From: a virus
Reading direction: 5' to 3' (one strand)
IMG/VR virus record: IMGVR_UViG_3300042691_009514
Span: 1-26,032 of that record
DNA length: 26,032 bases
The translations under genes and the position numbers were made by a program. Within the stretch, counting starts at the first letter, position 1; every line of letters starts with the position of its first letter. The notes beneath the pieces were generated by a model. The model did no database searches. It saw nothing but the letters and a program-made list of their open reading frames with translations, and was not told where the DNA came from. Below are positions 11,591 to 25,774 of the stretch, one piece after another.

Positions 11591-12139
11591 ATGGCTACAA
11601 GTGGAAGTTATTATTTAAATGGACCATCATTAACATCATCCACTTCTGTTTTTACAGATAGTGGATTGACTACATTAGCTCCTGATGGATTCTATTCTGA
11701 TGGTGTTATAGTAAGAGAGCAAGTAGGTGGGGTTCTTCTACCTGCTGTTGCTTGTAGTAGTTGTGAACCTCAGTGTCTTGAGTACAGTGCTATATCGGAA
11801 GGTCCATCTGGTGTTGTAGAATATAACGACTGTGAAGGCAATCCTGCTTTAATATATTTATCAGAATTTGAGGAAGTGTTCTTTTGTGCTTTATCAAACT
11901 CTATAGTTCCATCAGAGGGAATTGCTATAATTGAGGTTGGAGCTTGCACTCCACTTGAGTGTACTAGATATCTTGCTGATGCAGAAGCTGAATCTGGAGG
12001 TGTTACTTATACAGATTGTTTTGGAGATATTCAAACAATAACATTAGCAATGGGAGAAACGCAAGAATTCTGCGCATCAGATACGCCATCTACATCAGGA
12101 GGGGTTTTAATTAGTTTGGTAGCTGGTACTTGCCCATAA
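11591..12139 (+). CDS. Cys-repeat virion protein, likely tail accessory or adhesin
   Basis: The product has 182 residues with ten cysteines. The N-terminal ~60 residues (YYLNGPSLTSSTSVFTDSGL, then APDGFYSDGVIVREQVGGVL and CSSC) form a motif I have seen in Bacteroidota phage tail genes. The rest is two tandem modules with identical cysteine spacing: C62, C81, C99, C119 and C124, C143, C161, C181 (steps of 19, 18 and 20 residues in both). Each has a Y-x-DC-x-G turn followed by beta strands and ends in VG/AG-x-C-x. The domain is small, beta-rich and probably disulfide-stabilised outside the cell, which suits a surface-exposed tail decoration or receptor-binding part. Function is inferred. It lies 14 bases after the 1462-residue tail gene and 11 bases before the next. 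Confidence 0.6.
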   Translation: MATSGSYYLNGPSLTSSTSVFTDSGLTTLAPDGFYSDGVIVREQVGGVLLPAVACSSCEPQCLEYSAISEGPSGVVEYNDCEGNPALIYLSEFEEVFFCALSNSIVPSEGIAIIEVGACTPLECTRYLADAEAESGGVTYTDCFGDIQTITLAMGETQEFCASDTPSTSGGVLISLVAGTCP

Positions 12140-12150
12140 ATATAAAAACT

Positions 12151-12969
12151 ATGCCTAATTACACACTAACATATAGCGAAGGAGTTGCAGGATGGGTTTC
12201 ATTCTACTCTTACTATCCTGATTGGATGATAGGAATGAATAACTACTTCTACACGTTTAAAGGAGGAAACCTTTACAGACATAATGTAAATGAGAATAGA
12301 AACACTTTCTATCAACTTTGGTGGACTCAACTAGAGGATCCATTGCAGGCTTTTAAACCATCTGTAATAAAGAGTGTGTTCAATAACTCTGTCCTTGAGA
12401 ATAAACTATTCAAAACCATAAACATAGAAGGAGATGCTCCTTGGAGTGCTACACTAGTTACTGATTTGCAAAACTCAGGATTTATATTAGGTCAATGGTT
12501 TGAAGAAAAAGAAGCATCATTCTTTGCATTTATTAGAAACAATAGTTCTGGACAGTTCAGTCTTAGAAGTGTTAATGGTATTGGGGATAGTATTAATGTA
12601 ATAGGTAATGGAACCAACAATGCTCTTGTTGAATTTAGTATATCTCCACTTATATCTATTGGAAGCATAGTAAGTGTTGGTGATGATGTATATTTCGGAA
12701 CTCCAATTCCTGAGTATGCAGGACCAGTTATAGGAATAAATGTAGACCTTCCAAATGGTATAAACCAATTAGAGGTTAATAACAATATGTTAACTCCATT
12801 AACTACTCCAATACCTGGAGATGTGAATTATTTCTTATACGTTAAAAACTCAATAGCTGAATCCCATGGCGTTCTTGGTCACTATTGTGTGTTTACTCTT
12901 GAGCAAAATTCTAATTCAAAGGTTGAACTTTTTTCTGTTGAGTCTGAAGTAATGAAAAGTTTCCCATAA
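12151..12969 (+). CDS. Conserved tail-associated phage protein
   Basis: The product has 272 residues. The N-terminal signature SEGVAGWVSFYSYYPDWMIG followed by MNNYFYTFKGGNLYRHN is a conserved block I recognise from structural genes of crAss-like phages and from tail-region genes of other large phages; it is aromatic-rich and suggests a compact beta fold. The middle is mostly beta sequence, and a Gly/Ile/Val segment near VGDDVYFGTPIPEYAGPVIG resembles a small barrel. No enzymatic motif was seen. The ATG at 12151 is preferred over an upstream in-frame TTG at 12130 that would overlap the previous gene; the homologous-looking sequence starts at PNYTLTYSEG. Likely a tail hub or baseplate-like component; exact role unknown. 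Confidence 0.65.
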   Translation: MPNYTLTYSEGVAGWVSFYSYYPDWMIGMNNYFYTFKGGNLYRHNVNENRNTFYQLWWTQLEDPLQAFKPSVIKSVFNNSVLENKLFKTINIEGDAPWSATLVTDLQNSGFILGQWFEEKEASFFAFIRNNSSGQFSLRSVNGIGDSINVIGNGTNNALVEFSISPLISIGSIVSVGDDVYFGTPIPEYAGPVIGINVDLPNGINQLEVNNNMLTPLTTPIPGDVNYFLYVKNSIAESHGVLGHYCVFTLEQNSNSKVELFSVESEVMKSFP

Positions 12970-15820: not shown

Positions 15821-18800
15821 ATGAACGAAGAAGCACTTATAGACGCATATAATTTATTTAAGAGAAACGGATACGGAGATTCTATAGAGGATTTCAAAGT
15901 ATTAATATCTAAAAATCCTGAAGCTTTAAGAGATTCTTATTCTTTATTTGTATCAAATGGATATGGAGATTCTATAGATGACTATAAAAAATTATTAGGT
16001 GTTGGCGTGGCTCCTATTGTAAAAAAAAAATCCGCTTTGGACTCGTCTTCGGAAGCTGGTTCATTGGTATCGCAAGAATCAGTTAAGCCACAGAAACAAG
16101 TAGCTCCTTTAGCTACACAGCAACAAGTAGCTCCTTTAGCTCCACAGAAACAAGTAGCTCCACAAGTTGATGGTGAACCTCCTGTTAAGCCTATGCAGAA
16201 GCTTACCAAAAAAGATTGGGGATTGGAAAAGATGGCAGAAGAAAAAGAACTTCCTGCTTGGGCACAAGATATTGTTAAAAAGGAAAAAGAAGATATAAAA
16301 AAATTAAAAGTAAGTAAAGCTCTTTTTAAAAATGCAAATAAAAATGCATTAAAAACAGAAAGTTCTTTGCAAGATGCATATAAGAAAGATCCTATATCTC
16401 CTATTTTTACTGTTCAGCCTTTAATTGGTACAGATGGTAAACCAATTTTACAAGAAACAAAACTTGAAGATATAGTAGGTGTTCCTTCTAAAGAGAAAGT
16501 AGAAGAAGAATATAAAAAACTTGACTTAGATAATCCTAACCCATACCTATCAGCTTCTACTTATAGTAGAGAGCCTGTAGATAATGTTCCTATAAATAAA
16601 GATAGTTTTATTGAAGAAACATTTACAGATGAAAAATTAATTAAACTAGGTATAGATCCTGCTGATTTTGATGGATATCTTAATCTTTCAGGATTTAAAG
16701 AAGATTATAAAAAAAGAAGAGATAGAGGTGATTTTAATCCTAATCTTTGGTCAGATTCAAATAAAAAGTTAAACGAAGAATTATATAAAAGTAAATTACT
16801 ATCAAATTATATAGAAACAAAAAATAATAGGGAGGTATTAAAAAGCAAACTTAATTCTGTTATAGCTAGCTATGATGGTAAAAAAATACCTGTAAACAAA
16901 AATGCAAAAGCTTTTGATAATAATTTAATAGCAAAATATACAGAAGAAAATCTCCCTATATTATATCAAAAATTAAAAGAAAGAGATCAATTAAACAAAG
17001 AAAAATACCAAGAATTAACACAAGATAACACTGGTCTAAATTCACTTGCAATAGGAACTAAGAACTTTTTAAAATCAGGTTTAAATGGATTTATGGATGC
17101 TGTTAATAAAACTTCAACTACACTTTATGATGTATTAGGAGCTGAAGACATAGCAGAAGACTTAAGATATTTAAATGAAGAAAGACAACTAGAAAGACCT
17201 TCTGAAAGACAGGTTTCTTTTGCTAGTGGTAAGGTTGTTGATTTTAATGGTAAAAAATATCTTGTAGATGAAAAGGGTACTGTTTATGATAAAGATAATG
17301 AGATAGTTGTAAATGATTTAATTGAAGAAAATTCTTTAAATAAAATATTAGAAGAAGCTAAAAAATCAAAAGAAGAAGATTGGTTTTTTAGTCCACAAGG
17401 TACAGCTGTTCAAACAAGTTCTGTTCTTGGCGATATGATTTGGCAAGTAGCTTATCAAGCTACTCTTGGTCGTGTAGTAAAAGGTTATGGAAATCTTCCT
17501 ATACCAAAAACTACTGCTGATGCAATAATAGCTCAATCATCACTTGGTTATTCTCAAGGATATGAAACAGCATTAAAAGAAGCTAGAGAAGCAGGATTAA
17601 CAGATAAAGAATCAGAAGAAATAGCAGCTGATGCAGCTCAAAGAACAGCTATATGGTATGGTATGACCGCACCTATATCTCCACAGACAAAAGCTGTTGA
17701 ATCTTTATTTGGTTCGGCAGAAAAAGAACTTATCAAAAAAGCGGTCAGTGCATATAAAACAAATGGGAAAAAAGGTTTTATATCTACATTAAATAATGGA
17801 TTTAAAAATATTCCTAAAAAAGCTGTAGGATTTATTGAAGAAGGTGGTAAAGAAGCCATTCAAGAAAACATTCAACAAGCAGGTGAGTCTTTATGGATTA
17901 ACGCACAAAAAAATATAGAAGCAGGTAAAGAAATATCTAACGAGACAATGTCTTTTGATGACTTTGTAAATACATCTGCTCTTTCTTTTCTATCAGGTGG
18001 TATCGTTTCTAATTTAAAGATACCTTCTTTTTCTTCAAATAAGAAAACACAAATAAAAAATCTATATCAATTATCTCAGGATATGGATGTTTTAGATGCG
18101 AATCTAAAAGAGATGGTAGGTAATAAAATAATTTCTCAAGAAGATGCTGATAACGTAAAGAAAGATGTTGTAGCTGTTTCAAGAAATATCACGAGAATAC
18201 CAAAGGATACCAATCCTGATGTTCAACTTGATATTATGAGAAAGCTTAATGATATTGAGGATTTAGAAAATAGTAAAGAAACATTAGATAAATCATTTCA
18301 TTCTCAAATAGACGATAAGATAAAAGAGAAAAGAAATGAAATAAACGAAATTTACAATAAATCATTAACTAAAATAAGTGAACAGCCTATAGCTGAATAT
18401 ATTATTGATAATAACAAATACACCAAAGAAGAGTTCTTCAATCAGTTGCAAGGTAAGACTCAGGATGAGTTAAAGGCAATGAATATTGTCGTTAATAACG
18501 ATGAGCAGACTGCAACAGAGATTGGGAAATTATTTGAAGTACCTGTACAGCCAATAACCAGAGTTGGCGAAACGATGGAGAAAGAATCAGGATTAACTCC
18601 TGAGGAGAGAACTCAAAGAATATCTGAGTTAAACAACTTGCTTGCATCTGATGCAACAAGTCTTCAAGAAACAGGTACAGGTAACTTAATACCTGAAGCA
18701 AGACAAGAGATACAACAAGAATTACAAACCTTAAAAGCAGAACAAGATGCCATTCAAAAGCAAGCAGCAGGTCAAGTACCTGTACAGCCAACAACCAGAG

Positions 18801-21800
18801 TTGGCGAAACGATGGAGGAAGGAAAACCCCAAGCAGAACCTGAAGTCACTACCAAAGAAGGTGTCAAAGAAGAAGTAACGCAAACTATCATCAGTCCTAA
18901 GGTTGTAATCACAGGAACTAGGAATGGGATGGAGAATCTTGAGAGTTCTAATTATGATCAAAAGACTGATACTAAAATAAAAGATGCTAGAGGAAGAGAG
19001 CAAGAGTTTGGAGAGAACAATGTATTAGTTGAGGATGATGGTAAAGGTAATAAGGTAATAAATGTAAAAGCTGATGCTATAGATTCTTTTGGCAGAGCAG
19101 GATTCTTACAAGCATCTGTTATTGTTCCAGCAGATACTGATGTAGATGTAGATGCTGTTAAGCAAGTAGTTGACTCAGAAGTAAATAGAATAAAGGAAAA
19201 GAATAACGAGACTCTTAGATTGAATGAAGTAGATCCAAGAGACTTGTCATTAATGAGAGATGCAATAGTAAACGCTGTTAAGCCAGCTCCAACAACTGAA
19301 GCAGCACCAACAGCTCCTACTGTTAAGGTTGAAGGTAAAATTATACCTGGTAGTAAAGCAGTAATATCTGATATTGAAATAACATATCCAACAGAACAAG
19401 AGAAAACTCAAAGAGAAGAAGAAAGATCTACTAATGAATATATAAATAAAATTTCAGAAGATCTAAATGAAGAGGATGTAAATGTATTAAAATCTGAACT
19501 TGGAGGAACATTTGGTTTATTAAGTGCAAATAATCCTATGACAGAACCATTAAGTGAGGAAGATAATGCAAAACTTAATGAAAAAGCAATTGATTGGCTT
19601 AAAAAAAGAGGATATAATCCAAGACAAATTACTGGTAAGTATGGTCAAGGTGAAAAATCTTTGTTTGTTCCAAAACTAAAAAAACAAGACGCTATAGATT
19701 TTGCTATTGAGTTTAATCAAGAATCAGTAGCTCATTCTGAAGGAATGATTTATCAAGATGGATCAATGAATCCAAGGGTAAAATCTGAAGACGATTTCTT
19801 TTTTAATGAATATACTCCTGGTGCAAATAATATATCTATTGTAAAAACTCCAGAAGGATTTAAGGCATTTAAGGTAGGATATGACTTTAAAACAAAAAAT
19901 CCACCTACTGCGTCTGTTCAGCAAGAGGTAGAACAGTTAGGTAATTTGATATCAGGAACTGATGCTCAGATAGATCAGAAGTCTGATAATATCAAAAATA
20001 AGAAACTGTCAAATGCTGTTTCAAAAGCTGCAAAGTCTCTTTCTAAAATTCTTCCAAATGTGAAGTTTGTTGTTCACGATACAGATGAGTCTTATAGAAA
20101 ATCCACTGATGAGGAAGGAAGATCTCAGTCATCTAGAGGTCAGTATATTCAAAAAGGAAAGACAAAAACTATACATATCAATGGAACAAAAGCAAATAAT
20201 AGGACTATTGCACACGAGGTGTTCCATGCTATTTTATTAGATAGAGTACAATCAGAAAAACAAGCTGCTGATGTGACTAAAAGAATGATTGAGGCTATAT
20301 CTAAAAAGATAGAAGCAAATCCAGAGCTTAAAAAAGATTTGGATGATTTTGCAGCTAACTATAAAGAAAACATTCAAAACGAAGAAAAACTTGCTGAACT
20401 AGTTGGTATACTAGCTGAGAACTACCAAAGCCAAACACAAATTGTAAAAGATATTATTAAGAGATGGCTTAACAAACTATCTCAAATGTTTGGACTATCT
20501 CCAATAACATCTGAGACAGAAGTAATGGAGGTTTTAAACACAATAGCAAGAAAGGTTGCTACTGGTAAGGCTATTAAGGAAAGACAAGTTGCTAAAGTGC
20601 TTGGAGAAAAAGCTGAGTCCAAAATTTCAGAAACAAAAAAGAAACAAGCTGTAACTATAATGCAAGGGAAAGAATCCATGAAAAAATTTGGATTATTACC
20701 AGGTAAAAATGTTACAAGAAAAATTGGTGAAGCTCTTCAAGCAAGACAAAGATCTAAATATGGAATGATAGATCAAAAAGATAATTCATTAGAAGCTAAA
20801 AAGAAAATATCAAACTGGATGGTTGATGAAGTTAAATACTTTATTGAACTTATGGGAGATAAAAGTGGAAAGGGATGGTATGGTGAATTATATCAAAAAT
20901 CATTAGATGCAATGTCTAATGTGTTTCCAGAAATGAAGACTGATCAAAATGCACGGGATTTATTTACAATGCTTGTTGCTATAACATCTGATGGACAAAA
21001 AGTTATGAGCAACTTTAAATTAGCATCCGCAGCATATGATTATTATAAAAAAAATGGTAAAATGCCAAAAACATTACCTGGTCAACGTGTTGCATCTTTT
21101 GAAGCTAATTTAAATAGAATAAATAATTTACTAAAAGAATATAATGGTGATGTTGCCGCTATTAAAAAAGATTTAATGGAGGTAAAATCTATTGAAGAAA
21201 TAAATAAAGAAAGAAAAAAAGAAGGTCTTGAACCTTTATCAACAAATTGGCCTGTTAGTTTTAAAGCTCCATTTGCAGCTTCAGTATTTGGACCTAAATT
21301 AGGAATGTTTTATTCAAATTTATCTGGTAACGAAGCGTATCCAACGCTTGATAGATGGTGGTCTAGAACTTTTAATAGATATAGAGGAACATTAATTCCA
21401 GGATTAAAAGGAGGATTTAATAAAAAAGGAGAAGCGATAGGACTTGATAGATTTAAACAATTACTTGGAAATAAAGAAATGAGTAATGAAGAGGCTCTTT
21501 TAGCTGCAAAATCTTATCGTGATTCTTATGCAGCAAAAGGATATAAATCTGGAACTGAAATAGAGAAAGCAGCAAATACAATATATAAAATAGCATTTGA
21601 AAATTTAAATGATGCTCCATTTACAAAAAATGATCGTCAGTTTATGTATGACACAGTATCTGATGCTGTAAATAAATTAAAAAAACAAGGATACAATTTA
21701 AGTATTGCTGATGTACAAGCAATACTTTGGTACTTTGAAAAGAATCTATATAAAAATCTTGGAGTTCAAGCTAAAATAGAAGGAATAAGTTATGAAGATG

Positions 21801-24800
21801 CTGCCAATTATACATTTGATAAATGGAAAGAATCTGGTAAAAAATTTGATTATAAGATTAATGAATCAGAAGAAGGTCAATCTGTAGAAGATGCTGATGA
21901 AGATATAGAAGAAGATATAATATCTAGAAAACAAGTAGAGTTCAAAGCAAGAAGACAGGAGCCAGTCGCTGGAAACAAGCTATTTAATGAGCCTCTACAA
22001 GATGCCACCACAATTGCAGAGAGATACGCTAAGAAAGCTGGTATTGACATGCAAGAGGTAACACCTATTAGATCTTTAGATAAGGAAAACTCTAAGGCAA
22101 TAGCAAAAGAGTTTGACAAGATGAAGGATGATCCTACAGATCCACAAGTGGCTAAATCATACAAGGCAATGGCAGATGAAACCATTGAACAGTATAAAGA
22201 AATAATAAAGGATGGTTATGTTGTAGAGATAAACAATGAGGAGCCTTACTCAAGTAGTGAGGATATGATAAATGACCTTAGAAAAAATAAAAGGTTTAAG
22301 GTATTCTCTACAGAGTCTGGTTTTGGAGATGAGCCTATAACAGATCAACAAAGAAAAGAAAATCCATTACTAAGAGATAGTGGATTCAAGGATGTAAACG
22401 GACAGACACTACTAGTAAACGATGTGTTTAGATTTGTTCACGACTTCTTTGGACATGCTAAAATGGGTAATAGTTTTGGTCCTGTAGGAGAAGAGAACGC
22501 ATGGTTAATCCACTCTGTAATGTATACACCACTTGCTAGAAGAGCAATGACAAGCGAAACAAGAGGTCAAAACAGTTGGGTTAATTTCAGTGGTGTAAAT
22601 GACGAAGCATTTAAGTTAAGAGATAAGGCAAGAGAACTTCGTAAGGAAGGTAAAACCAATGAGGCAAATGAGCTTGTTGGTCAGGTATATGACATGATGA
22701 AGTTTGCTGATCAGAAGATTGGTCTTATGCCTGAGTGGGTTTCTGGTACAGGAAATGTTGAATCTGCAATAAATGCTAGAAAACAAAAGACATCAGAAAT
22801 AGATAACATTGTAAAAACAGGAAAGCAAAATAACTTCTCTGATGACGCTATACGTCAGTACCTTAAACAACAAGGATACTCAGACATAGAGGCTACAAAT
22901 GCTATTAATAAATATAATGTAAGGGAAGAAGGTGTATTTATTCGATCTGAAGAAAACTTAGGTAAGAAAATAAAATCGTCAATTAATTCTTTCAGAAGAA
23001 GATTCTTATCTGCAAGGTCATTCCTTCCAAAGTCTGTTTTTGCATATAAAGAGCAGAAAGAGGCATTTGTTGCAGCACATTTGAATATTGTAGATCAAAA
23101 TGTAACTGACTTTAATAGGTTATACAATAAGTTTATAGGAGATAAAGACCAACTAGTAAAAGACTTTGATGCTTACTTAACAGGAGATAATACTGTTAGT
23201 CTTCCTATAGAGTTTATGCTTATAGCTAACAGAATGAGGAATCAAATAGATACTCTATCTAAAATGTTAATAGATAATGGTTTGGTTGACGTAGAAATGG
23301 CTAATACCATAAGAAAAAAATTAGGTAAGTATCTTACAAGAGACTATGAGATATATCATAATGACAACTGGAAGGATAAGGTTGAAGAAGAAGTTAAACA
23401 AAAAGCTATTAACTTACTGAGAATCCAATACTTACCAATGGCTCAAGATGCAGCAACTAAGGAGGGTATACCAGTTAATGAGGTACTAGATAGATATGTT
23501 AATAACAGACTTGATGAGTTACTCAATAAAGGAGGTGCTACAAATTTTATAAAAGGATCAAGGCTTGGATCTAAGGATCTATCAGTATTAAAAGAACTCC
23601 AAGACATACCTTATGAAATTAGAGCACTAATGGGAGAGTATGGTGATCCTGCATTAAACTATGCAAACACTATACTCAAACTATCATCACTTGCTGCTAA
23701 CCATAACTTCTTAACTCAAGTTAAGGAGGCTGGAATGGAAAAGTATTTCTTTGAAAAGAATGATCCAAGAAGACCTAAAGAATTTAATACTCAAATTGCG
23801 GTAGAGGGTAGTGAGACAATGAACCCTTTGAATGGTCTATATACCACTAAAGAAATAGCAGAAGCGTTTCAAGCTCAACAAAAACAACTTGGAGACTTGA
23901 TGGAGACTTTTATGAAACTTCAGTCTATTGTTAGGTATGGTAAAACAATTCTATCTGCTGGTACTCACGCCAAGAACGTACTTGGTAACCTAGGTTTTGT
24001 ATGGGCAAACGGTCACTACACAGACATGGACAAAGCATATAGCATTGTAAAGAATGACTTACTAAAAGCCAATAACCAAGAGAAAAGAGAGATAATGGAG
24101 AACTATATCAGATTAGGTATAGTTAAACAGTCAGCTGGTATTGGAGAAATCATGGATATGTTTAAGGATGCCAACTTTAACACAGCTATGGCATCAAGAC
24201 TTAACAATAAAAAATTAAATATTTTAGGAAAAGCAAAAAGATTTTTATTCCAAGCTAAAAAATTTGCAGAGGATCTATACCAAGCTGAAGATGACTTCTT
24301 TAAAATAGTAGCATATGAGAACGAGTTAAGAAGATACTCAAAAGCTTTATTTGATAAATCTAAAAAAGACTTAACTCCTAAAGAACTTGAGCAGGTAAAT
24401 AAAGTAGTTGCAGAAATAGTTAAGAATACTTATCCAACATACAGTAGGATACCTGAGGCGATCAAGATGATCAGAAGGTTCCCATTCATAGGAAACTTTG
24501 TATCGTTTCAAGCTGAGGCATATAGAACTGCATTTAACACCATGGCTCTTGCAAAAAATGAAATATTATCTGATAATCCTGAGATAAGAAAAATAGGAGC
24601 TATAAGACTTGCTGGTGCTACAACATACATATCAGCTAAAACAGCAGTACTACAATATTTTGGAATGGCTGTTGGGACAGGACTTACTGGAGTATTTGGA
24701 TACTTGTTTGATAATGATGATGAAGAAGAAAAGGATAAGGATATCAGAGAGTTTATAGCTCCTTGGTCTAAAAAGTCTGATCTAATGGTTTTAAGTGCTG

Positions 24801-25774
24801 GTGATGGTAAAATAAAATACATAGACTTTAGTGCTTCAGATCCTCATGGTGGTATCAAGAAAGCAATTAATGCGTTCCTCCTTGGAGAGTCAACAACAGA
24901 TAGTTTTATAGATGGAGTTGTAGGAGTTCTTGAACCATTTATAGGAGAGGAGATGACTACATCAACTATACTTTCTTTGAAGAACAATAGAGATAAGAAT
25001 GGTAATCAGATATGGAATCCAGAAGATACTGAAGCAGAAAAAATGAATGCAATCTTAGGAGAGGTATATAAATTAATGGAACCAGGAACTGCTTCTTCAA
25101 TAAGAAGAGGTATAGCATCTGAAGATAAAGCCAATGAACTTATAGCTAACATAACTGGATTCAGAATATATGATGTAGATGTTAATAAGCAGTTTGGGTT
25201 TAAAGTTAAAGACTACTCAGAAAGAATTAAAGATGCAAGAAGACTATATAACTCTGTGCTGTATAAAAAAGAATCCACAGAAGAAGATAAGAAAAATGCT
25301 TTAAACAAAGCAGATAATGCTCTTAAAGAAATATATGGAGAGCTATCAACAGTATACAACTCTGCTGAAAGACTTGGAGTAAAACCTGAAGACTTGAAGA
25401 ATTTAATGAAGACTTTTGGTGATATGGGTAAGGATGACATAACAAAAATACAGTCAGGAAAAATACCGAGTCTAAAACAAAATATAGAACAAGAGAAGTA
25501 TAAAGAATCTCTTCTAATCGACAAACAGAGTGGTGTAAGGTATGACAATCAGAACGATCTCAAGAGATATAATAGAGATCTTTGGGAGAAAAACTTTGGT
25601 GAGAAATCTGATTACTACAAATCTAAAAAAGGAGAAAGGGAAGAAAGAAAGAAACTAAGAGAAGAAAAAGATGAGGAGTATGACTATACTCCAAAGAAAA
25701 AGAAAAATAAAGATGGATCTCGTAAGAGAAAATATAATATGTATTATGACACACGTTATGAGATACGTTATTAA
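15821..25774 (+). CDS. Giant 3317-residue polyvalent virion protein with zincin protease motif
   Basis: Single uninterrupted frame of 9,954 bp, last gene of the late block, in the T7 gp16 position, so probably packaged and injected with the DNA. Visible parts: residues 8-60, twin LFxxNGYGDSIxDx(K) repeats; 93-115, QVAPLA linker repeats; about 528-690, a hydrophobic Ala/Gly segment; 908-1000, two PVQPxTRVGETME copies; about 1215-1360, a DUF3293-like domain (GGTFGLLSANNP, ITGKYGQGEKSLFVPKLK); about 1395-1560, a zincin with IAHEVFHAIL (H1465, E1466, H1469) and a candidate third ligand E1526 in EEKLAE; about 1614-2017, a helical domain with TLDRWWSRTFNRYRG; about 2041-2309, a conserved domain with VHDFFGHAKMG (H2207), ENAWLIHSVMYTPLARRAM and SETRGQNSW; about 2377-3004, a long helical region, perhaps LPD38-like; 2931-2965, a likely membrane helix; 3267-3317, a Lys/Arg-rich tail. 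Such multidomain 'polyvalent' proteins are known in phages and conjugative elements. No lytic transglycosylase motif was recognised. Confidence 0.85.
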   Translation: MNEEALIDAYNLFKRNGYGDSIEDFKVLISKNPEALRDSYSLFVSNGYGDSIDDYKKLLGVGVAPIVKKKSALDSSSEAGSLVSQESVKPQKQVAPLATQQQVAPLAPQKQVAPQVDGEPPVKPMQKLTKKDWGLEKMAEEKELPAWAQDIVKKEKEDIKKLKVSKALFKNANKNALKTESSLQDAYKKDPISPIFTVQPLIGTDGKPILQETKLEDIVGVPSKEKVEEEYKKLDLDNPNPYLSASTYSREPVDNVPINKDSFIEETFTDEKLIKLGIDPADFDGYLNLSGFKEDYKKRRDRGDFNPNLWSDSNKKLNEELYKSKLLSNYIETKNNREVLKSKLNSVIASYDGKKIPVNKNAKAFDNNLIAKYTEENLPILYQKLKERDQLNKEKYQELTQDNTGLNSLAIGTKNFLKSGLNGFMDAVNKTSTTLYDVLGAEDIAEDLRYLNEERQLERPSERQVSFASGKVVDFNGKKYLVDEKGTVYDKDNEIVVNDLIEENSLNKILEEAKKSKEEDWFFSPQGTAVQTSSVLGDMIWQVAYQATLGRVVKGYGNLPIPKTTADAIIAQSSLGYSQGYETALKEAREAGLTDKESEEIAADAAQRTAIWYGMTAPISPQTKAVESLFGSAEKELIKKAVSAYKTNGKKGFISTLNNGFKNIPKKAVGFIEEGGKEAIQENIQQAGESLWINAQKNIEAGKEISNETMSFDDFVNTSALSFLSGGIVSNLKIPSFSSNKKTQIKNLYQLSQDMDVLDANLKEMVGNKIISQEDADNVKKDVVAVSRNITRIPKDTNPDVQLDIMRKLNDIEDLENSKETLDKSFHSQIDDKIKEKRNEINEIYNKSLTKISEQPIAEYIIDNNKYTKEEFFNQLQGKTQDELKAMNIVVNNDEQTATEIGKLFEVPVQPITRVGETMEKESGLTPEERTQRISELNNLLASDATSLQETGTGNLIPEARQEIQQELQTLKAEQDAIQKQAAGQVPVQPTTRVGETMEEGKPQAEPEVTTKEGVKEEVTQTIISPKVVITGTRNGMENLESSNYDQKTDTKIKDARGREQEFGENNVLVEDDGKGNKVINVKADAIDSFGRAGFLQASVIVPADTDVDVDAVKQVVDSEVNRIKEKNNETLRLNEVDPRDLSLMRDAIVNAVKPAPTTEAAPTAPTVKVEGKIIPGSKAVISDIEITYPTEQEKTQREEERSTNEYINKISEDLNEEDVNVLKSELGGTFGLLSANNPMTEPLSEEDNAKLNEKAIDWLKKRGYNPRQITGKYGQGEKSLFVPKLKKQDAIDFAIEFNQESVAHSEGMIYQDGSMNPRVKSEDDFFFNEYTPGANNISIVKTPEGFKAFKVGYDFKTKNPPTASVQQEVEQLGNLISGTDAQIDQKSDNIKNKKLSNAVSKAAKSLSKILPNVKFVVHDTDESYRKSTDEEGRSQSSRGQYIQKGKTKTIHINGTKANNRTIAHEVFHAILLDRVQSEKQAADVTKRMIEAISKKIEANPELKKDLDDFAANYKENIQNEEKLAELVGILAENYQSQTQIVKDIIKRWLNKLSQMFGLSPITSETEVMEVLNTIARKVATGKAIKERQVAKVLGEKAESKISETKKKQAVTIMQGKESMKKFGLLPGKNVTRKIGEALQARQRSKYGMIDQKDNSLEAKKKISNWMVDEVKYFIELMGDKSGKGWYGELYQKSLDAMSNVFPEMKTDQNARDLFTMLVAITSDGQKVMSNFKLASAAYDYYKKNGKMPKTLPGQRVASFEANLNRINNLLKEYNGDVAAIKKDLMEVKSIEEINKERKKEGLEPLSTNWPVSFKAPFAASVFGPKLGMFYSNLSGNEAYPTLDRWWSRTFNRYRGTLIPGLKGGFNKKGEAIGLDRFKQLLGNKEMSNEEALLAAKSYRDSYAAKGYKSGTEIEKAANTIYKIAFENLNDAPFTKNDRQFMYDTVSDAVNKLKKQGYNLSIADVQAILWYFEKNLYKNLGVQAKIEGISYEDAANYTFDKWKESGKKFDYKINESEEGQSVEDADEDIEEDIISRKQVEFKARRQEPVAGNKLFNEPLQDATTIAERYAKKAGIDMQEVTPIRSLDKENSKAIAKEFDKMKDDPTDPQVAKSYKAMADETIEQYKEIIKDGYVVEINNEEPYSSSEDMINDLRKNKRFKVFSTESGFGDEPITDQQRKENPLLRDSGFKDVNGQTLLVNDVFRFVHDFFGHAKMGNSFGPVGEENAWLIHSVMYTPLARRAMTSETRGQNSWVNFSGVNDEAFKLRDKARELRKEGKTNEANELVGQVYDMMKFADQKIGLMPEWVSGTGNVESAINARKQKTSEIDNIVKTGKQNNFSDDAIRQYLKQQGYSDIEATNAINKYNVREEGVFIRSEENLGKKIKSSINSFRRRFLSARSFLPKSVFAYKEQKEAFVAAHLNIVDQNVTDFNRLYNKFIGDKDQLVKDFDAYLTGDNTVSLPIEFMLIANRMRNQIDTLSKMLIDNGLVDVEMANTIRKKLGKYLTRDYEIYHNDNWKDKVEEEVKQKAINLLRIQYLPMAQDAATKEGIPVNEVLDRYVNNRLDELLNKGGATNFIKGSRLGSKDLSVLKELQDIPYEIRALMGEYGDPALNYANTILKLSSLAANHNFLTQVKEAGMEKYFFEKNDPRRPKEFNTQIAVEGSETMNPLNGLYTTKEIAEAFQAQQKQLGDLMETFMKLQSIVRYGKTILSAGTHAKNVLGNLGFVWANGHYTDMDKAYSIVKNDLLKANNQEKREIMENYIRLGIVKQSAGIGEIMDMFKDANFNTAMASRLNNKKLNILGKAKRFLFQAKKFAEDLYQAEDDFFKIVAYENELRRYSKALFDKSKKDLTPKELEQVNKVVAEIVKNTYPTYSRIPEAIKMIRRFPFIGNFVSFQAEAYRTAFNTMALAKNEILSDNPEIRKIGAIRLAGATTYISAKTAVLQYFGMAVGTGLTGVFGYLFDNDDEEEKDKDIREFIAPWSKKSDLMVLSAGDGKIKYIDFSASDPHGGIKKAINAFLLGESTTDSFIDGVVGVLEPFIGEEMTTSTILSLKNNRDKNGNQIWNPEDTEAEKMNAILGEVYKLMEPGTASSIRRGIASEDKANELIANITGFRIYDVDVNKQFGFKVKDYSERIKDARRLYNSVLYKKESTEEDKKNALNKADNALKEIYGELSTVYNSAERLGVKPEDLKNLMKTFGDMGKDDITKIQSGKIPSLKQNIEQEKYKESLLIDKQSGVRYDNQNDLKRYNRDLWEKNFGEKSDYYKSKKGEREERKKLREEKDEEYDYTPKKKKNKDGSRKRKYNMYYDTRYEIRY
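16091..16161 (+). repeat. 27-bp tandem repeat, 2.6 copies, coding QVAPLA linker
   Basis: Units at 16091-16117 and 16118-16144, with a partial third from 16145 to 16161, share CAAGTAGCTCCTTTAGCT-type sequence. In frame they give KQVAPLATQ, QQVAPLAPQ and KQVAPQ, a Pro/Ala/Gln-rich flexible linker between the N-terminal repeats and the body of the giant protein. Confidence 0.9.
18537..18817 (+). repeat. Pair of 44-bp direct repeats inside the giant gene
   Basis: Copies at 18537-18580 and 18774-18817 differ at one base only. They are 237 bp apart (79 codons, in frame) and encode VPVQPITRVGETME and VPVQPTTRVGETME. The intervening ~65 residues are a Gln/Glu-rich helical spacer (LTPEERTQRISELNNLLA and so on). 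Near identity at DNA level implies recent duplication or ongoing homogenisation by recombination. Confidence 0.9.

Follow-up and report, generated by a model that had tools for sequence, protein, structure and literature searches.

A conserved domain in a giant phage protein is homologous to early phage proteins and carries a candidate metal site

We identified a conserved domain of ~255 residues inside a giant phage protein, and profile comparisons indicate that it is homologous to standalone bacterial proteins and to proteins encoded in the early region of T7-like Pseudomonas phages. The evidence supports a reading in which a metal-dependent enzyme from an undescribed superfamily has its active-site region in the HDxFGH block; the enzyme would be delivered into the host or made early and would act on a small molecule relevant to defence (probability about 0.55). 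The part of this reading that makes the domain a metal enzyme is, judging from its motifs, probable.

A compact domain in a giant phage protein

The window, by which we mean the whole stretch of viral DNA analysed here (IMG/VR record IMGVR_UViG_3300042691_009514, 26,032 bases), is probably a fragment. A single ORF at 15821-25774 (+) encodes a polyvalent-type protein of 3,317 aa, in which one chain combines the HDxFGH domain with a DUF3293 match (aa 1234-1303, positions 19520-19729, +; Pfam PF11697, E 5.8e-8) and an HEVFH zincin-like motif (aa 1465-1469, positions 20213-20227, +). When the whole chain was searched against Pfam, DUF3293 was the sole match, and it lies outside the HDxFGH block. 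Like the polyvalent proteins described by Iyer et al. 2017 (PMC5512222), the window protein is giant, multidomain and phage-encoded, with a zincin-like motif, and some relatives of the HDxFGH domain in BFVD carry the names large polyvalent or ART-PolyVal-like. That study named 40 unassigned domains (LPD1-40); its main text never mentions COQ4, hydroxylase or HDxxGH, and none of the LPD models present in Pfam matches the giant protein. We consider the protein to be, probably, cargo of the virus particle.

The ORFs upstream of the giant protein run in its direction, and one of the ten that we scanned has a virion-type Pfam match, while the other nine have no Pfam match at all. The matching ORF (12130-12969) hits the model for the C-terminal domain of the crassvirus muzzle protein (PF25729, E 2.4e-13).

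The initial annotation regarded the pairing with a zincin in the same chain as a useful clue. A loose single-sequence search detected the zincin region in just 24 of the 85 ORFs that carry the domain, and many standalone members have no zincin; the motif is therefore an optional partner, and the data do not support the pairing as a clue. By single-sequence search, DUF3293 (PF11697) was seen in just 4 of 85 relatives. A further stretch at aa 1631-1960 (positions 20711-21700) has the pattern WYGELYQK...LFTMLVAITS, which recurs in at least 14 of the 85 HDxFGH-domain ORFs; similar text is also present in gp205 of Rhodococcus phage E3 and in locus L298, and the region probably represents a further domain of giant phage proteins that has yet to be described.

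The HDxFGH domain itself spans aa 2050-2305 (positions 21968-22735, +), as delimited by conservation in sets of 42 and 69 sequences, by an AlphaFold2 model and by PHROG 3170, in good agreement with the interval of 21940-22745 given by the initial annotation. The three peptides that it had quoted, VNDVFRFVHDFFGHAKMG (aa 2199-2216, positions 22415-22468, +), GEENAWLIHSVMYTPLARRA (aa 2223-2242, positions 22487-22546, +) and TSETRGQNSWVNF (aa 2244-2256, positions 22550-22588, +), are exact in the ORF at 15821-25774, as is its numbering of H2207, D2208 and H2212. One more conserved block, FADQKIGLMP (aa 2295-2304, positions 22703-22732, +), belongs to the domain and was absent from that annotation.

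The block had been described as dense in His, Asp, Glu, Arg and Trp, catalytic in appearance and strictly conserved, and its conservation agrees with this in an alignment of 69 diverse sequences whose identity to the window is as low as 26%. Ten residues are invariant in 69/69 (Y2114, F2203, R2204, H2207, D2208, H2212, G2223, E2224, H2231 and Q2250) and E2246 is kept in 67/69, a degree of conservation that is far above chance and like that of an active site. Four of the invariant residues (R2204, H2207, D2208 and H2212) lie in the first peptide, which would form the first part of the proposed metal site; G2223, E2224 and H2231 lie in the second, where E2224 would supply the x11-E element of the metal motif; and E2246 and Q2250 lie in the third. 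In the FADQKIGLMP block, Q2298 and K2299 are conserved, the latter in 60/60 sequences that extend to that position.

AlphaFold2 predicted a confident single domain (pLDDT 93.2, pTM 0.89) built chiefly of helices, with only a few short strands among them, and the conserved block is the core of one compact domain. The HDxFGH motif lies on the helix at 160-174 of the model, E2224 and H2231 on the next helix (182-193), and E2246 and Q2250 on a third (198-217). Two viral members (L071 and L080) lack E2246, reading GTRGQ and STRGQ at this site with the HD-x3-H-x11-E part intact, and are useful natural variants with regard to which residues bind metal.

Relatives in phages, plasmids and cells

PHROG 3170, whose function is unknown, is the sole family model that covers the block (aa 2057-2258, E 1.7e-18); no Pfam, NCBIfam or PADLOC model does so. 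In this family, which includes Bixzunavirus gp103 (433 aa), the domain core is shared with the window, but it is not part of a giant protein. When PADLOC-DB was searched, neither the window domain nor the member at the Micromonosporaceae locus L196 had a match, though the neighbours of L196-type genes do. Among PDB sequences the domain found no usable match. Foldseek searches of the PDB likewise turned up no clear match for either of two predicted models (the window domain and a T7-like member), and VIA-align on Foldseek's candidate chains returned low Z scores throughout, an outcome that excludes no family. The earlier statement that the block has no known reaction thus agrees with our searches of Pfam, NCBIfam, PDB sequences and Foldseek, which matched no characterised enzyme to the domain.

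Foldseek against viral models returned the known relatives, followed by weaker matches to small proteins such as Q0E607 of Pseudomonas phage LKA1. By length, Q0E607 is LKA1 ORF7 (188 aa, the sole ORF of such size in the LKA1 record), and the ORF7 translation contains NAWFRAFHDLGH...E...DTVGQ. The homologue in phage phi15 is gp02, located downstream of host-type promoters; both genes are in the early region, upstream of the RNA polymerase gene. The papers on LKA1 early proteins that we consulted hold no functional data on ORF7.

We aligned 74 diverse members of this T7-like family, which were collected by IMG/VR pattern scans and an HMM, and compared them with the window family. In hhalign the two profiles aligned across 119 columns with every motif in register (probability 96%, E 2.5e-9; an earlier comparison gave 93% and E 3.6e-7). 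The predicted model of the T7-like member (pLDDT 94.8) places the helices around the motif in the same order as the window model, and forms intermediate between the two families occur in some large ORFs, for example at L298, which has FRAWHDYEHHYLHGNDFSLDGE and FPPQKVALL. Searching six whole genomes with the T7-like profile yielded a single match, at E 7.4e-4, to the HDxFGH gene in a genome of 12 Mb (locus L202). The LKA1 ORF7 family (PHROG 7806) shares with the window the order N-x2-FR-x2-HD...E...E/D-x2-GQ...FxxQ, and its counterpart of the FADQKIGLMP block is likely FPxDQ. In contrast to the window domain, its members are small (~160-190 aa) and early, do not have the longer stretch before the motif, and place the second H one residue closer to the D. 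The T7-like family is present in 123 phage records, chiefly those of Pseudomonas phages. Where the initial annotation had suggested an enzyme acting in early infection, homology to these early-region proteins bears out the timing, while the enzymatic part follows from the motif and is kept as a proposal.

Near-identical blocks were also said to occur in large proteins of unrelated phages and prophages, and we found the block in large proteins of many phages, in standalone genes and in bacterial genomes. Pattern scanning of IMG/VR found a relative encoded in 420 of 435 matching stretches, and a profile-guided scan found at least 593 relatives. Among named records, the domain matched 200 phage records and four plasmids, all actinobacterial. 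Cyanobacterial phages carry it inside large proteins, one of which is annotated as a large polyvalent protein, and Rhodococcus phage E3 carries it in gp205. Planktothrix phage Pag-Yong1 is an example of a phage with the domain in a giant protein. It also occurs in 187 records of Mycobacterium phages, where the one member examined forms a gene of its own (433 aa) with head-decoration genes nearby. It is now possible to treat the domain as a single family whose members come from hundreds of environmental phage contigs and from early genes in well-characterised laboratory phages.

Bacterial and archaeal assemblies contain the domain at 45 loci, some of which are probably phage-derived; others are standalone genes of ~200-280 aa. 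Just one new full-length member came out of searches of 337 alphaproteobacterial and 343 Streptomyces-order genomes, and the family is therefore rare in cells. A plasmid-type actinobacterial branch (L182, L185, L191 and L084) has HDAIAH, is shorter by one residue before GE and differs in its N-terminal region, and its gene at L084 is near ArdC-like and HNH genes.

The candidate metal site and its alternatives

The window family carries HD-x3-H-x11-E in 66 of 69 sequences, which is one residue longer than the HD-x2-H-x11-E of COQ4 and of the T7-like family, where it is kept in 73/74; the T7-like counterpart of E2246 is E or D in 74/74. In COQ4, HD-xx-H-x11-E is a zinc motif and zinc promotes C1 decarboxylation, and the double mutants H142A-H146A and D143A-E158A have no zinc stabilisation and form no product (PMC7615680). 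Based on the motif, we propose that a metal ion would be bound by H2207, D2208 and H2212, which share a helix, together with E2224, where the following helix begins, and that H2231, E2246 and Q2250 may be second-shell or second-metal ligands. It is plausible, from these sequence patterns, that the HDxFGH site works like a COQ4-type metal site. The family now has a concrete metal-site hypothesis, and its small members should express easily.

Alternatively, the domain could be non-enzymatic, with metal stabilising a fold whose role is to bind nucleic acid or a host protein and, for example, to block a defence protein. Proteins made early by phages often inhibit a target by binding to it, and the ligand-like residues may be structural. 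However, homologues lie within bacterial metabolic gene clusters of two phyla, which is a better fit to an enzyme, and the invariant residues, most of them polar, gather in a few motifs. We consider a binding role without catalysis to be unlikely.

The domain could also be a true, very distant member of COQ4 (PF05019), the zinc-dependent C1 decarboxylase of coenzyme Q synthesis, and act as a zinc decarboxylase of an aromatic or lipid-like substrate. Compared by hhalign with a bacterial COQ4 alignment that we built for the purpose, the motifs are in register, with R-x2-HD-x2/3-H-x3-G-x6-GE common to both, including the R at -3 and the G before E, but the likeness is confined to this one short motif, the E-value is 0.006-0.008 and the probability just 5-6%. 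Column-shuffled COQ4 profiles scored as high in 0 of 150 comparisons with the T7-like profile and 1 of 100 with the window family, which is a mild control because shuffling columns destroys local order. The COQ4 homologue Alr8543 was among the best 331 Foldseek chains. When the T7-like model was compared with the COQ4 fold (6e12, 3msq), chain 6e12_B was among the candidates, but its Z of 2.2 (rmsd 7.3, 97 aligned) is at noise level and unrelated globins scored higher (Z 3.5). PF05019 did not match the giant protein even at E 1, the conserved E/D-x2-GQ and F-x2-Q elements were not found in COQ4, and COQ4 is part of a multi-enzyme metabolic complex. Consequently, the shared motif makes a COQ4-like site plausible, but the E-values and a structural score below that of globins make COQ4 identity the weaker proposition, and we hold it to be distinctly unlikely.

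Aromatic amino acid hydroxylases and HD hydrolases fit worse. A relative of the hydroxylases would use H2207, H2212 and E2246 as 2-His-1-Glu iron ligands, and HDxFGH is near-identical to the hydroxylase iron motif HDVFGH; when a hydroxylase alignment was built and the profiles compared, hhalign aligned exactly those 11 columns (E 0.0021, with 0 of 100 shuffles scoring as high). The window family does fit H-x4-H with a distal Glu, but the T7-like family, which must share its mechanism, has the wrong spacing (HD-x2-H, and hence H-x3-H) and aligned out of register (E 0.037). Furthermore, D2208 and E2224 vary no more than the histidines do, PF00351 is unmatched by the giant protein (the same model finds real hydroxylases in 4 of 12 genomes searched), and no hydroxylase is among the Foldseek rows, though that by itself is not decisive. 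We hold this relationship to be very improbable. An HD-superfamily phosphohydrolase acting on nucleotides can be set aside as scarcely credible: the succession of an HD pair, GH and GE recalls dNTPase motifs, but the superfamily signature needs an upstream His, no upstream column exceeds 39% His in either alignment, and there is no HD Pfam match.

Bacterial neighbourhoods and the proposed role

An SAH-hydrolase-family gene adjoins a standalone member in five genomes from two phyla, three Streptomyces and two alphaproteobacteria; gene calls at the bacterial loci are mechanical ORFs backed by conservation. The Streptomyces loci (L208, L205 and L363) hold one shared cluster in which the SAH hydrolase is 83-84% identical and the HDxFGH gene 52%. 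The cluster, annotated by Pfam on L208 and by identity on L205 and L363, also holds an MFS transporter, a class V aminotransferase, a SAM methyltransferase, a Cys/Met PLP enzyme and a homocysteine methyltransferase. With its methyl-cycle enzymes, aminotransferase and transporter (4879-13098 in L208), it looks like an unstudied biosynthetic cluster. The Ruegeria (L179) and Pelagibius (L192) members are on a separate tree branch, and their SAH-hydrolase-family gene is directly downstream of the HDxFGH gene.

Micromonospora and Nocardia members (L203, L204, L209 and L210) have class V aminotransferase, solute-binding or TldD/PmbA genes nearby. In Micromonospora, the TldD/PmbA protease genes close to the HDxFGH gene (L203 8715-11662 and L209 9406-11436) recall some peptide natural-product clusters.

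At nine Micromonosporaceae loci (two near-copies), the HDxFGH gene has a type I methylase on one side and a protein kinase on the other, and UvrD, Cas3e and Cas8e then follow in eight of the nine. In the two loci examined, CRISPR arrays with 61-base spacing are at the end opposite to UvrD, Cas3e and Cas8e. These HDxFGH genes and the Kibdelosporangium member form one clade in the tree. Annotation was by PADLOC on L193 and, for the other loci, by identity to L196. The type I methylase, HDxFGH gene, PD-T4-6-like kinase and GajB-like UvrD helicase are conserved (L193 5412-16400, L196 3400-16411 and L199 737-16459) and sit as a module between a type I-E CRISPR array and cas3/cas8e. This may be an undescribed CRISPR-associated defence module.

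Returning to the metal-enzyme reading, the genomic context suggests that the phage would deliver the domain with its DNA inside a large virion protein, or make it first, as in T7-like phages. The domain would then act soon after DNA entry and change a small host molecule that is relevant to defence. This molecule may be S-adenosyl-methionine (SAM), S-adenosyl-homocysteine (SAH) or a derivative, and a SAM-related substrate is our leading guess, though a weak one. We make it because of the bacterial neighbours and because of an analogy: the first protein made by phage T3 is a SAM-destroying enzyme that counters restriction (PMC8406200, PMC7877911). The T3 SAM lyase (gene 0.3 product) is likewise a first-made protein of a T7-like phage, and we liken it to the HDxFGH domain in genome position and proposed substrate only, claiming no kinship of sequence or fold. 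The domain's own link to SAM comes from the bacterial neighbours only, and other bacterial members adjoin TldD/PmbA or solute-binding genes.

A broader proposal, in which an undescribed superfamily of metal enzymes serves both the phage side (in giant or first-made proteins) and the host side (at actinobacterial CRISPR I-E-cas3 loci, along with a methylase and a kinase) with SAM, SAH or a related compound as its substrate, is a long shot. If correct, the superfamily would add a second means of disarming or running methyl-dependent defence, one unrelated to the SAM lyase of the T3 type. If either the SAM link or the link to CRISPR-adjacent defence is true, the domain would represent a new counter-defence route and partly explain the cargo of giant phage proteins.

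Rhodococcus phage E3 gp206 (L083 7250-8509) is annotated as a 'putative aminotransferase', and we considered it as a link to the Streptomyces cluster; it has no similarity to those enzymes. Part of gp206 reads like an ADP-ribosyltransferase-type domain.
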